Both the position numbers and the translations under genes were made by a program. Shown in pieces: positions 57,475 through 64,000 of a DNA stretch of 64,000 nt (positions within the stretch are counted from its first letter, which is position 1; each line of letters opens with the position of its first letter). The stretch comes from Chloroflexota bacterium (GTDB taxonomy: Bacteria; Chloroflexota; Anaerolineae; UBA4142). The notes beneath the pieces are model-generated. The model searched no databases and was not told the origin of the DNA. It saw nothing but the letters and a program-made list of their open reading frames with translations. Location: NCBI GenBank assembly GCA_023381515.1, contig JAMCQI010000041.1, positions 62,001 through 126,000 on the forward strand. Direction: 5' to 3'.

Positions 57475-58512
57475 TTAGAGATCGGTTTTGAGGGAAAAGA
57501 TGTGGACGGGGACAGCCTTGCCCTTGATCTCGAAGGTGCCTTCGTCTTCAAAGGGTATTCGATCGCCGGCTCCATCCCGTGTGCACTCATCCACAAGGAT
57601 CGGCTTGCCGACGATCTTGGTATGTGACTCGAGGCGTGCGGCGAGGTTTACCGTTCCCCCCACGCACGTATAAGTGGCGCGCCGCTGGGTACCGGTGAAA
57701 CCTGCAATCACCTGCCCCGAGGCGATGCCGATGCCGATCCGAATCGGCGCCCGATCGATGGCCACACGTTCGCGATTATATTGCTGGACCAACTCGATCA
57801 TCTGCCGTGCGGCCCGGACCGCGCGCTCGCAGTGATCCGTATGGCGCAGCGGGGCACCAAAGATCGCCATGAGGCCGTCGCCGACCATCTGGTTGACGAT
57901 TCCCCCCTCGCCGCCGATGGCATCCATCATCAAGGTGTAATAGTCGTTCAAGAGCTCGATCGTCTCCGCCGGCGACTGCGACTCGGCGATCGTCGTGAAA
58001 GAACGGATGTCGCAGAACATGACCGATGCTTCCACGAACTTGCCGCCGAGCGTAAAGCCCGTCGTCAGCAGTTCCTCCGCCACCTCTTCCGTCGCGAATT
58101 TCTGGATGAGCTCCCGCTGTCGGTCCCGCAACCGCTTTTTCTCCAGGCTCGCGTTGAGGCGCGCCTTGAGCAGAACGGGGTTGATCGGTTTGTGGAGGTA
58201 ATCCTCGGCGCCGAGTTCGATACACTGGATTACACTTTCGAGTTCGTCAACACCCGAGATCATGATCACGGGAATGTCATGCAGCTTCGGGTCCTGCATC
58301 AATTCCGTCAGCACCTGATATCCGTTCATGACCGGCATTTCGATATCGAGGAGCACCAATTCAAACGACTGCGAGCGCAGAGTTTCCAGCGCCTGGCGAC
58401 CGTTCTCGGCAAAGGTTACCTTGTGTCCCTGCTGCTCGAGATGCCGCGCGAGGAGCAGGCGATTCATTTTGTTGTCGTCCACGACCAAAAGACGACCCGG
58501 CTCGACGGCCAT
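57475..58512 (-). CDS. Response regulator with class III nucleotide cyclase domain
   Basis: A 345-aa output protein. Residues 5-120 are a receiver domain (LLVVDDNKMNRL, phospho-Asp 56 in LLDIEMP, Lys 108 in HKP). The class III cyclase follows with metal-binding Asp 168 (VMFCDIRSFT) and Asp 212 (MVGDGLMAIFG) and the transition-state pair Asn 289/Arg 293 in GGTVNLAARLES, so it looks active. The usual purine-specifying Lys and Asp are Gln 208 and Gly 286, so the nucleotide is uncertain. The ATG at 58512 has GGGGGG upstream and lies one base after the HPt gene stop. It is likely to be phosphorylated by the kinase-HPt pair encoded upstream. Confidence 0.9.
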   Translation of the reverse strand: MAVEPGRLLVVDDNKMNRLLLARHLEQQGHKVTFAENGRQALETLRSQSFELVLLDIEMPVMNGYQVLTELMQDPKLHDIPVIMISGVDELESVIQCIELGAEDYLHKPINPVLLKARLNASLEKKRLRDRQRELIQKFATEEVAEELLTTGFTLGGKFVEASVMFCDIRSFTTIAESQSPAETIELLNDYYTLMMDAIGGEGGIVNQMVGDGLMAIFGAPLRHTDHCERAVRAARQMIELVQQYNRERVAIDRAPIRIGIGIASGQVIAGFTGTQRRATYTCVGGTVNLAARLESHTKIVGKPILVDECTRDGAGDRIPFEDEGTFEIKGKAVPVHIFSLKTDL

Positions 58513-58513
58513 C

Positions 58514-58879
58514 TTAGCCCCCCTTTGTCGCTTTGACCTTTTCCAGCTCATCCTGGACCCGGGCGTATTCATCCTCGGCCAGGGTCAGTTTCTCGTCGGC
58601 GCCCTCGAGCACCCCGGTCTTGCCCATCATCTCGAGTTCCTTGGCTGTCGCGCAAAGAGTGTGTGCGCCGAGTCCGGCGCTGCTCGATTTCAATGAATGG
58701 GCGGCCCGGCGGAATTCGTCCGTGTTTTGGGCGGCGAGTGCCGTGTGCAACTGCGCAAGCAGGGTAGGTGTCTCGGAAAGATAGGTATTGATCAACTCGA
58801 CTAGAAAAGAGGTATCTCCTCCGACCGAAGCCAGAAGGTCGTCGAGAACAACCTCGTCGATGACGCCTGATTCTACCAT
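58514..58879 (-). CDS. Histidine phosphotransfer (HPt) protein
   Basis: A 121-aa stand-alone HPt protein. The phosphorylated His is residue 61 in RRAAHSLKSSSAGLGAHTL, with the usual downstream ATAKELEMMGK helix. It should pass a phosphoryl group from the receivers of the hybrid kinase to the receiver-cyclase next door. It lies 11 bases downstream of the kinase gene and one base upstream of the cyclase gene, in one operon. The C terminus is rich in charged residues. No other domain is present. Confidence 0.9.
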   Translation of the reverse strand: MVESGVIDEVVLDDLLASVGGDTSFLVELINTYLSETPTLLAQLHTALAAQNTDEFRRAAHSLKSSSAGLGAHTLCATAKELEMMGKTGVLEGADEKLTLAEDEYARVQDELEKVKATKGG

Positions 58880-58890
58880 AGCTTCACCTC

Positions 58891-61800: not shown

Positions 61801-62535
61801 GGGATCATAGCTTGAGATGACGACGGCCTGCGCGCCAAAAATATCGCGCACCTTGTCGCCAACCAGATCATAGATGGCCTGAACGTCTAGTCTTGAGGCC
61901 AGTCCTTGCTGCACACTGTTGATGATTGCCAGCTCATTTGCGCTCTGCTCTAATTCCCGGATCGAGGTTCTTAGCTCCATTTCGCGATCGCTCAGACGGT
62001 GTTCCAAGCCTTGATGCAGCCGCGCATTCTCGAGAGAGAGCGCCGCCTCATTGGCAAAGAGGGAGAGGAGATCGAGATCGGTCTCGTCGAATCGGCTCGA
62101 CGCGACCTTGTTTTCTGTGTACAAGATGCCGATCGGCTTGCCGGCGGCCATCAACGGCGCTGCGAGGAGAGAGACCGGGAGGGGTGCGGGCGTCGACGTG
62201 GTCTCCACCGCCAAGGCGCCATGCGAGGATCGAGAGATCGCAGCGAGGAGCTTGGAGAGCCGCTCGGATTCACCTTCCAGCGGTTGACCGCGAGTGATCG
62301 TGGAGGTCGTCTGGCCCTTTTGATCGAGGAGCAGCAGCACCACGCGCTCGGCGCCACTGAGCTCAACGGCCTCGTCGACGATGAAATTGAGGAGGGTGTC
62401 CGGGTCGCGCTGCTCGTTCATACGCAAGCCGAGCTCGATCACGCGGCGCAGCCGTCCCTCTGATCCTCGGGGAGGCCGATTAGCAGTAGCCTGCGAGCCG
62501 TTGGCAATCGTCTGTTCCTGCCCGTCGGACATCAT
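58891..62535 (-). CDS. Hybrid sensor histidine kinase (GAF-GAF-GAF-PAS-HisKA-HATPase-REC-REC)
   Basis: A 1214-aa soluble hybrid kinase without membrane helices. Three GAF domains (about 40-175, 205-355, 375-525) are followed by a PAS domain (540-665) and HisKA with phospho-His 694 ([15 protein letters not shown]). The HATPase domain has [19 protein letters not shown] and [10 protein letters not shown]; two receivers follow with phospho-Asp 999 ([11 protein letters not shown]) and Asp 1142 ([11 protein letters not shown]). It would phosphorylate the HPt protein encoded next. An in-frame 26-residue insert (about 825-850) interrupts the ATPase domain and is coded by an imperfect palindrome. Start is ATG 62535 or 62532; the gene follows the SpoIIE phosphatase by about 90 bases. 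Confidence 0.93.
59986..60063. repeat. Intragenic palindromic insert in the kinase gene
   Basis: Within the ATPase domain code, AGGATGA-type segments on one side and TCATCCTT on the other form an imperfect palindrome around GAGGCTCGTGCCTC. It keeps the reading frame and adds residues such as [14 protein letters not shown]. Similar palindromic inserts are known from other bacteria (rickettsial palindromic elements; I also recall them in Chloroflexota kinases). Confidence 0.5.
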
Positions 62536-62624
62536 GGTGGCCTCCGTGTTACCGGCATTTGCGGTTCGAGAAGCGGCCGGACCGGGGTTTGTGTTGTGCG
62601 TTTTCGGGCCGTGGCCGCCAGCTG

Positions 62625-64000
62625 CTAGCCTTGTCTCGCGGCGGCAAGCGCGACGACGGTCAAGTCGTCCAGCAAGGGCTCCTGGCCTATGAATTCGTCC
62701 ACGGCGTGGGCGAGCGTCTGGACAACCGCGCGGACATCACCGCGGGGAGCGCTCGTCTGGACCACGTGGACAAGACGTTCCTGGCCAAAGAATTCACCCT
62801 GTTCATTCATCGCGTCGGTCACTCCGTCGGTGTTGAGGACAATCAGGTCGCCTTCTTCAAGCGAGAGAGAATTGGCAACATAATGAGCGTCCGGGTCGAT
62901 TCCGAGCGCGATAGAGTGTGGGGAGAGTTCCTCCAGTTGGCCGGTCCGGTGATGCCAACCAAGTGGTGGGTTGTGACCAGCGTTTACGTAGGTGAGGCGC
63001 CGTGCGCGCGGTTCCAAGACCGCAAAGAGAAGGGTGACGAACATCCCGCCCATCGAATCCGAGCAAAGCAGACGATTCGCGCGTTCCAGGGCGGTCCGCG
63101 GATCCGGCTCGGCTTCTGCGCACGCTCGCAGGACGCTCCGGGTTTCCGCCATAAAGAGCGCTGCCGGCATCCCTTTGTCGGAGACATCTGCGATCACTAT
63201 ACCCCAGCGCCCGCCCGCGAGCGAAAAGAAATCGTAGAAATCGCCAGAGACCTCTCGCGCGGGCCGCCAGAACCCGGAAAGGCGAAAGCCCGCGATGCGA
63301 GGCGCATGCGCGGGGATAAGACTCGCTTGCACCTGCCGGGCGGCCTCTAGTTCCCCATCCATCCGCCCCTTGTCGATCGCAAGCCCATAGAGGCGAGCAT
63401 TCTCTATTGCAACGGCGGCTTGATTCGCAAAGAGGAGCAAGAGCTGAGCATCGTCCGGCGTAAAGGGCGCTTGATCCGCGGGGCGATAGACGGACAGGGC
63501 GCCAACCGGCTGAGAGTCCAGGCAAACGGGCGCTGCGAGCGCGAGCGAGGAATTCGATCGTAGCGAGGCCCGGCTGCGCATTACGGGTTCGCCACTCGCA
63601 AACGCCTTGCCTATGGCACCGACCCCCGGACTGACGTTTCCCCTGCCCGCGATAGGAGGGGGGAGGGTGAGCTGCGGGACGAGCAGCTTCTTTTCGCCAT
63701 CATAGAGGTGCAGCTGGCCTGCGGGGCTGTCCAGAAGCGCAGCGGCCCGCTCTACAATGGCCGCCAGCGCCTTGGAGAGTTCGAGATGACGGCTGATATC
63801 GAGTGAGGTTTCATAGAGCTTGAGGAGTTGGCGGTTGTGTGCCAAGAGTTCAGCCATCAGGGCTTGGTCGCGCTGTCGCAGGCGACTGTCGCTCACGCGT
63901 GAGGCGTTCTGAAGGACGTGGGGATAGCGCTCCACGAGCGACAGGAAGACCGTTTTGGGGAGTTCGAGGAGGGTTACCCGGGTGGCCGCACGGGCAGCGG
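62625..64000 (-). CDS. SpoIIE-type protein phosphatase with GAF and (partial) cNMP-binding-like N terminus
   Basis: A PP2C-type serine phosphatase cut by the window edge; the frame stays open to position 64000. Upstream of the apparent GTG at 63935 the translation continues as ATRVTLLELPKTVFLSLVER, typical of the last strand and helix of a cyclic-nucleotide-binding domain (RxATVxxLxxxELLxLPxxxF...). A GAF domain follows (about 50-185 of the visible part), and then the SpoIIE domain with ISGDFYDFFSLAGGRWGIV, IADVSDKGMPAALFMAETRS and VLNTDGVTDAMNEQGEFFGQ, which hold the metal-binding Asp residues. It leads the four-gene phosphorelay operon. A cNMP made by the last gene could regulate it (inference). 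Confidence 0.85.
   Translation of the reverse strand, partial: AARAATRVTLLELPKTVFLSLVERYPHVLQNASRVSDSRLRQRDQALMAELLAHNRQLLKLYETSLDISRHLELSKALAAIVERAAALLDSPAGQLHLYDGEKKLLVPQLTLPPPIAGRGNVSPGVGAIGKAFASGEPVMRSRASLRSNSSLALAAPVCLDSQPVGALSVYRPADQAPFTPDDAQLLLLFANQAAVAIENARLYGLAIDKGRMDGELEAARQVQASLIPAHAPRIAGFRLSGFWRPAREVSGDFYDFFSLAGGRWGIVIADVSDKGMPAALFMAETRSVLRACAEAEPDPRTALERANRLLCSDSMGGMFVTLLFAVLEPRARRLTYVNAGHNPPLGWHHRTGQLEELSPHSIALGIDPDAHYVANSLSLEEGDLIVLNTDGVTDAMNEQGEFFGQERLVHVVQTSAPRGDVRAVVQTLAHAVDEFIGQEPLLDDLTVVALAAARQG

Follow-up and report, generated by a model that had tools for sequence, protein, structure and literature searches.

The last 6.5 kb of a 64,000-nucleotide stretch of Chloroflexota contig JAMCQI010000041.1 (hereafter the window) holds four co-directional minus-strand genes encoding, in order, a SpoIIE/PPM phosphatase, a hybrid histidine kinase, a histidine phosphotransfer (HPt) protein and a receiver-cyclase response regulator (Table 1). 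We propose, at close to an even chance of being right, that these genes form a one-way cascade in which a phosphorelay would control a cyclase, its nucleotide a Ser/Thr phosphatase, and the phosphatase a partner switch. The sequence makes a link between cyclase and phosphatase plausible: the phosphatase has a domain for binding cyclic nucleoside monophosphates (cNMP), and in relatives the gene of a class III cyclase repeatedly neighbours that of a cNMP-SpoIIE phosphatase, in other arrangements.

The open reading frame (ORF) list and Pfam domains agree on the four-gene order, as a sequence-only reading of this DNA had described it. Pfam also bears out the three GAF stretches, single PAS domain and two Response_reg domains which that reading assigned to the kinase, together with HisKA and HATPase_c, and each phosphorylation site that it listed was read in the sequence (His 694, Asp 999 and Asp 1142 of the kinase, His 61 of HPt and Asp 56 of the cyclase). 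H61 lies within FRRAAHSLKSS (residues 56-66) of a protein matching Pfam Hpt at 4.2e-15, and D56 within ELVLLDIEMP (residues 51-60) of the cyclase receiver; D56 is present in 120/120 listed cyclases. The His and Asp sites of a phosphorelay are therefore present in HisKA, receiver, HPt and terminal receiver domains, and we consider it very probable that the relay drives the cyclase. The intergenic gaps are 89, 11 and 1 nt, so that spacing is tight from kinase to HPt to cyclase and looser at the phosphatase; no promoter- or terminator-like site was reported in the 89-nt gap. The end of the cyclase gene and its receiver and cyclase domains were as first read, but the start in the ORF list, 58572, gives way to a conserved start at 58512, one base past the HPt stop, which yields 345 residues as in the related protein P0121. 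All NCBIfam matches shown for the four genes fall under the curated cut-offs.

The cyclase protein matches Response_reg and Guanylate_cyc (Pfam, 1.8e-24), and has the residues expected of class III. The metal-binding aspartates already noted by the sequence-only reading are D168 and D212, present in 120/120 listed cyclases including the window's, and the transition-state residues N289 and R293 are each kept in 119 of the 120 (among the 25 rows of the cyclase tree, N289 is Ile in genome G054). Where adenylyl cyclases have a substrate-specifying Lys, the window protein has Q208, which aligns with Glu of Cya2 (2w01) and with Lys of 6fht; column 208 holds 114 Gln, 4 His and 2 Glu. Rv0386 of Mycobacterium tuberculosis is a Gln-bearing adenylyl cyclase. 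The marks of guanylyl cyclases, according to the portion of PMC2576301 available to us, are Glu at the Lys position and Cys at the partner position; the window protein instead combines Gln208 with T282 (Thr in 120/120). The cyclase structure model is of middling confidence (pLDDT 79.4).

SpoIIE/PPM enzymes dephosphorylate Ser/Thr phosphoproteins. The window edge cuts the 5′ part of the phosphatase gene, and its N terminus is complete only by proxy, in the 99% identical, 550-residue protein P0001, whose numbering we use. P0001 comprises cNMP_binding (32-118; Pfam, 1.6e-26, the PF00027 fold), GAF (167-291) and SpoIIE (355-544) domains; the SpoIIE domain of the window protein itself matches at 2.2e-52. 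The sequence-only reading had placed a cNMP-binding-like N terminus before the SpoIIE domain. Completed with P0001, this is a genuine cNMP domain, and what that reading omitted is the GAF domain between the two. The phosphate-binding cassette (Gly-Glu ... Arg-Ser/Thr) of P0001 is canonical, FGEMALLDDEPRSA, with G, E and S in 46/46 and R in 45/46 aligned phosphatases. The PPM catalytic residues D346, D349, D364, D484 and D538 are present in all 46 aligned proteins, P0001 included. Hence the window phosphatase, seen through P0001, retains both sets of motifs, and its N-terminal domain probably binds a cyclic nucleotide.

A set of 396 genomes from the class to which UBA4826 (G001) belongs was searched for both families, with the best 3 (phosphatase) or best 5 (cyclase) candidates per genome scored. 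Full-length cNMP-GAF-SpoIIE orthologues, at 649 bits or more, occurred in 9/396 genomes, and eight of the nine fall in one order, of which 20 genomes were examined. The next phosphatase rows scored at most 435 bits and lacked most or all of the cNMP part, except for a tenth, much weaker match in G285 (query 6-537, 344.7 bits), which spans the cNMP part and whose locus lies outside the order count. Conservation of the gene order in relatives had been set beforehand as a test, and the order is not kept: 0/9 full-length orthologues precede a kinase, nor does a receiver-cyclase appear in the regions read. Close receiver-cyclases were found at 22 loci in 19/396 genomes, and 16 of these loci have, immediately upstream, a hybrid kinase together with HPt, the latter either as a gene of its own or as part of the kinase. 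Four loci (L153, L155, L162 and L165) carry a variant composed of a kinase, a receiver and a fused kinase-like-receiver-cyclase; L151 starts at a contig end and L172 has a kinase without HPt. On the kinase-HPt contig of G001 (L179), what lies upstream of the kinase is instead a set of S8 peptidase, GAF, cNMP-domain major facilitator superfamily (MFS-cNMP) and CRP-type genes. We conclude that the relay core is conserved and the place of the phosphatase is not, because 16/22 cyclase loci keep kinase and HPt and no orthologous phosphatase precedes a kinase. Searches across the phylum (400 genomes each, E 1e-90 and 1e-130) found neither family in genomes beyond those found in the class.

At 5/22 cyclase loci a distinct, GAF-less cNMP-SpoIIE protein (406-435 aa) is encoded directly behind the receiver-cyclase, with a 4-nt overlap in L155 and L157 and gaps of 2, 6 and 3 nt in L156, L158 and L163. 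A CRP-type gene, joining cNMP and helix-turn-helix (HTH) domains, comes next in L156, L157, L158 and L163, and five loci (L152, L156, L157, L158 and L179) have MFS-cNMP genes on the upstream side of the kinase; the enrichment count for PF00027 neighbours takes in these MFS-cNMP genes, the one of L157 by motif. One of the genomes, G169, has a single PF00211 match in all and six PF00027 matches. As a control we used 11 other short cNMP-SpoIIE loci of the same genomes, hand-picked from the PF00027 rows shown. In L182 (G214), L183 (G078) and L188 (G244) the second neighbour of cNMP-SpoIIE is a cyclase-SIR2_2 gene (Pfam, all three), and the gene between them is nSTAND1 by Pfam in L182 and similar by eye in L183 and L188. 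STAS and HATPase_c_2 genes stand on the other side of cNMP-SpoIIE in L183 and L188 (Pfam), and none was seen at L182. Six control loci (L180, L181, L184, L185, L186 and L187) have a deoxynucleoside-kinase (dNK)-like neighbour, by Pfam in L180 and by eye in the others, and no cyclase, and neither type of neighbour was seen at L189 and L190. In G001 a double-zinc-ribbon protein, present as its first 81 aa, starts 7 nt past the full-length phosphatase; its full-length relatives belong to the class III cyclases (matches in L197, L198 and L199), one of them with AAA and TPR domains (Pfam). Left uncounted is G308, in which the phosphatase is convergent with a cluster opened by two double-zinc-ribbon cyclases about 10 kb off.

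Several features of these loci stand apart from the counts. The MFS transporters with a C-terminal cNMP-binding domain in L152, L156, L158 and L179 are possibly nucleotide-gated. In L183 and L188, partner-switch genes sit beside defence-like domains (cyclase-SIR2_2, nSTAND1-like), and most of the six dNK-type loci also carry a gene resembling those of pyridoxal phosphate enzymes by eye. Copies of cNMP-SpoIIE without a catalytic Asp, at 10761-11981 (+) of L155, 1376-2623 (-) of L156 and 8033-9283 (-) of L157, are possible pseudo-phosphatases or decayed genes.

With the window left out, 9/25 cNMP-SpoIIE loci lie at most two genes from a class III cyclase; the number expected from PF00211 counts is 0.25, if genes are evenly placed at 0.9 per kb. 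The 9/25 may be too high, as unlinked cNMP-SpoIIE genes among further PF00027 rows may be missing; of the 21 genomes that supplied the 25 loci, 17 were selected for having a receiver-cyclase, and G001 has its place among the nine through an N terminus of 81 residues. Because L156, L157, L158 and L163 form one clade and L182, L183 and L188 another, the nine linked loci are not independent and represent about four lineages. On these assumptions, four or more linked loci would arise with a chance of 1e-4. At least four changes of the label 'SpoIIE neighbour' (window included) have to be placed on the cyclase tree, and the SpoIIE neighbourhood has therefore been gained or lost repeatedly; as few changes were required in 53/500 label shuffles, so the tree shows repeated change and not clustering. 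The phosphatase P0006 and the cyclase P0134 have the same reported longest contig (26832 bases), the same sources and the same contig count, which suggests linkage in another organism and is the best hint that the window's own arrangement occurs elsewhere. Similar coincidences are weaker: that at 5144 (P0018/P0144) may be due to chance, and that at 4459 comes from different sources.

In the cascade that we propose, signals at the GAF and PAS domains would cause the hybrid kinase to autophosphorylate at H694, and phosphate would pass from the kinase receivers to H61 of HPt and on to D56 of the cyclase, which would then start to make a cyclic mononucleotide. This product would bind the phosphatase next door at its CRP-like N terminus, and the C-helix, with the helices through the GAF domain, would dimerise or re-orient the PPM domains; a coiled-coil linker would serve as the transmitter, as is described for RsbU-type phosphatases in the accessible part of PMC12143880. 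The changed PPM activity would in turn affect how fully an anti-anti-sigma (STAS) protein, encoded elsewhere and phosphorylated on Ser, is dephosphorylated. That the nucleotide reaching the phosphatase comes from the window's own receiver-cyclase is, in our judgement, slightly short of an even bet.

Several observations weigh against this cascade. His takes the place of the cassette Arg in four of the five linked short cNMP-SpoIIE proteins (G169, G060, G309 and G293), and a phosphatase Asp is lost in three (G169, G060 and G299): the Asp of TDG is Gly in G169, the second Asp of GDxxD is Ala in G060, and G299 stops short of the final Asp-Asp. Only G309 and G293 preserve all the phosphatase motifs inspected. 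The linked short proteins with changed motifs may be altered receptors or decaying phosphatases. Among unlinked full-length orthologues, three (G191, G224 and G078) have Asp for the cassette Glu. Finally, the STAS and RsbW-like genes that lie near an RsbU-type partner switch were not found in the window, where no ORF of at least 60 aa matched six queries from L183 and L188 (phmmer, E 0.01).

The strongest competing explanation is that the genes are chance neighbours: the relay would be self-contained, its nucleotide meant for CRP-type regulators or other receptors, and the phosphatase would lie upstream by accident and be fed by other cyclases. We give this explanation a considerable chance, though below even and somewhat lower than that of the cascade. 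The lack of phosphatase-kinase order in all nine relatives, the 89-nt gap, the CRP-type or MFS-cNMP genes at several cyclase loci and the decayed motifs in linked relatives all fit it, as do the 1 to 44 class III cyclase matches per genome (23 genomes). However, accidental proximity does not account well for the excess of linked loci over expectation, the repeated adjacency on the cyclase tree or the P0006/P0134 coincidence. We regard it as unlikely that the receptor is degenerate, with the cNMP domain a structural dimerisation module without ligand and the GAF domain switching the phosphatase. Consistent with degeneracy, R136/D137 replace Thr127/Ser128 of CRP, the cassette Arg is absent from four of the five linked short relatives, and the non-binding FNR has the same fold; however, an unused pocket would not need the near-invariant cassette residues.

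The sequence-only reading had closed the circuit, with the nucleotide-switched phosphatase acting back on the relay. The genes do sit together, and GAF domains of the kinase could in principle bind a nucleotide. However, no Ser/Thr-phosphorylated relay part was seen and the order is not conserved. We favour a cascade over a loop because SpoIIE/PPM enzymes act on Ser/Thr phosphoproteins and no feedback onto the His-Asp relay was observed; RsbU is likewise termed a serine/threonine phosphatase in the part of PMC12143880 available to us. A closed loop is thus very unlikely. Least probable of all, and very unlikely, is a Pycsar-like anti-phage system with a pyrimidine nucleotide activating a cNMP effector: among the PADLOC models, PycC hits the cyclase (3.7e-23) and PycTIR hits the phosphatase (2e-15), and cyclase-SIR2_2 fusions lie beside cNMP-SpoIIE in three relatives, but the PADLOC matches cover generic cyclase and cNMP domains only, on which ground we set Pycsar identity aside, the four genes include no TIR or membrane effector (P0001 has GAF and SpoIIE), a two-component relay should control the cyclase, and the position of the uracil-contacting Asn of PycTIR is Asp in 44/46 proteins, as far as the accessible text of PMC11224242 allows the comparison. 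That text also reports that cyclase specificity residues vary between PycC clades.

Which nucleotide the proposed cascade would use can be approached through base contacts. Escherichia coli CRP contacts adenine through a C-helix Ser/Thr, S128, and in the cyclic GMP (cGMP) receptor XC_0249 the corresponding position is taken by Glu146, hydrogen-bonded to guanine N1 and N2, according to the available portions of PMC11224242 (both) and PMC3770947 (XC_0249). Binding by XC_0249 also requires a His, H98 (PMC3770947). P0001 has R136/D137 in place of the Thr/Ser at CRP 127/128, in a C-helix register that rests on sequence alignment. Column 137 is Asp in 44/46 and Asn in 2/46 proteins, and the same column holds Glu in the four His-bearing short proteins, His in G299 and Asn in the six dNK-linked proteins. 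Together, D137 and Gln208 hint at a ligand other than plain cyclic AMP (cAMP), perhaps cGMP. Against cGMP, the neighbouring CRP-type proteins keep Ser/Thr pairs, pointing to cAMP, and the available part of PMC3770947 reports that the Asn-Glu pair of XC_0249 is absent from another cGMP effector. A broader reading, which we think rather unlikely to hold in full, is that Anaerolineae have repeatedly re-assembled a cassette in which a cyclase nucleotide gates cNMP-SpoIIE and thereby a partner switch, the cyclase taking its input from a phosphorelay, from a zinc-ribbon/AAA sensor or from a STAND partner; its receiver-cyclase branch would signal with a nucleotide other than cAMP, probably cGMP, recognised through acidic base contacts (Asp137 in the window and, in four linked short relatives, Glu like that of XC_0249).

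Table 1 Positions of the cluster's genes, domains and sites within the window
Feature	Position	Strand	Basis
SpoIIE/PPM phosphatase gene, 5′ part cut by window edge	62625..63998	-	ORF list, Pfam, proxy P0001
Phosphatase cNMP-binding region, last 47 residues (P0001 94-140), only part inside window	63858..63998	-	Match to P0001 1-140, model secondary structure
Phosphatase GAF domain	63405..63779	-	Pfam
Phosphatase SpoIIE/PPM catalytic domain	62646..63215	-	Pfam, residue alignment
Gap between phosphatase and kinase genes, 89 nt	62536..62624	-	
Hybrid histidine kinase, 1214 aa: GAF x3, PAS, HisKA (H694), HATPase_c, receiver (D999), receiver (D1142)	58891..62535	-	ORF list, Pfam, residues read
HPt phosphotransfer protein, 121 aa, H61	58514..58879	-	ORF list, Pfam, residues read
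Receiver-cyclase response regulator, 345 aa	57475..58512	-	ORF list, conserved start, alignment
Codon of cyclase Q208	57889..57891	-	Aligned with the Lys that specifies the substrate in adenylyl cyclases (Glu in guanylyl cyclase Cya2)

Other features of the window and of related loci are recorded here in their own right. The G+C content of the window steps from about 0.54-0.58 (1-44000) to 0.59-0.61 (44000-64000), and its low-GC plus-strand part includes glycosyltransferase genes, as in a surface-polysaccharide island. At 30470-31780 (-) a LuxR-type HTH is fused to Kelch repeats, an unusual pairing. Downstream of the cyclase, at 55445-57079 (-), lies a gene for a 544-aa protein that matched nothing in Pfam or NCBIfam at the thresholds applied and that by eye we take to resemble an S53-type secreted protease. 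Small proteins with PEVEGH/PEVEAH repeats are encoded in L157 (6772-7275, -) and L158 (12626-13177, +), with genes for a GAF protein and an S8 peptidase close by (Pfam for L158); L157 also encodes a 1063-aa protein resembling, by eye, a nonribosomal peptide synthetase condensation domain. The repeat proteins may belong to a cluster for a peptide precursor that is linked with the cyclase operon.

The two halves of the proposed cascade are known separately, as phosphorelay-driven cyclases and as cyclase-linked cNMP enzymes. In CyaC of cyanobacteria, a phosphorelay-activated class III adenylyl cyclase, the modules are joined in one protein, whereas the window has separate kinase, HPt and receiver-cyclase genes, with no kinase and cyclase on one polypeptide; moreover, the window cyclase has Gln for Lys, and a cNMP-SpoIIE gene lies upstream. 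In Xanthomonas campestris XC_0250/XC_0249, as in the window, a class III cyclase gene is linked to the gene of a cNMP-domain enzyme. The accessible parts of PMC3770947 and PMC11224242 describe XC_0249 as a cNMP-GGDEF enzyme whose activity is raised by cGMP, with an acidic base contact (E146, like D137 of the window phosphatase), and mention no phosphorelay for this pair; its output is a diguanylate cyclase, whereas that of the window is a PPM phosphatase. Phosphatases of the RsbU/RsbP/SiaA type use RsbU-N, PAS, GAF and receiver sensors, as far as the part of PMC12143880 available to us covers them, whereas the sensor domains of the window phosphatase are cNMP and GAF; the main text of that paper contains neither 'cyclic nucleotide' nor 'CNBD' (0 occurrences). 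Pycsar likewise pairs a class III cyclase with a cNMP-domain protein (PycC with PycTIR/PycTM), but the window has no TIR or membrane effector, and its cyclase has a receiver domain under a kinase. We found no description of a cyclase-cNMP-SpoIIE circuit in the open-access literature by title and abstract, a search that could miss a paper; as far as it shows, the joining of a phosphorelay-driven cyclase and a cNMP receptor to a PPM phosphatase is undescribed. If the cascade is correct, it would bring a His-Asp phosphorelay, a cyclic mononucleotide and Ser/Thr partner switching, which are usually studied apart, into one short cascade. It would also provide a ligand for cNMP-SpoIIE, an architecture for which no experiment was found, and would define a class III cyclase family with a Gln/Thr base pocket.

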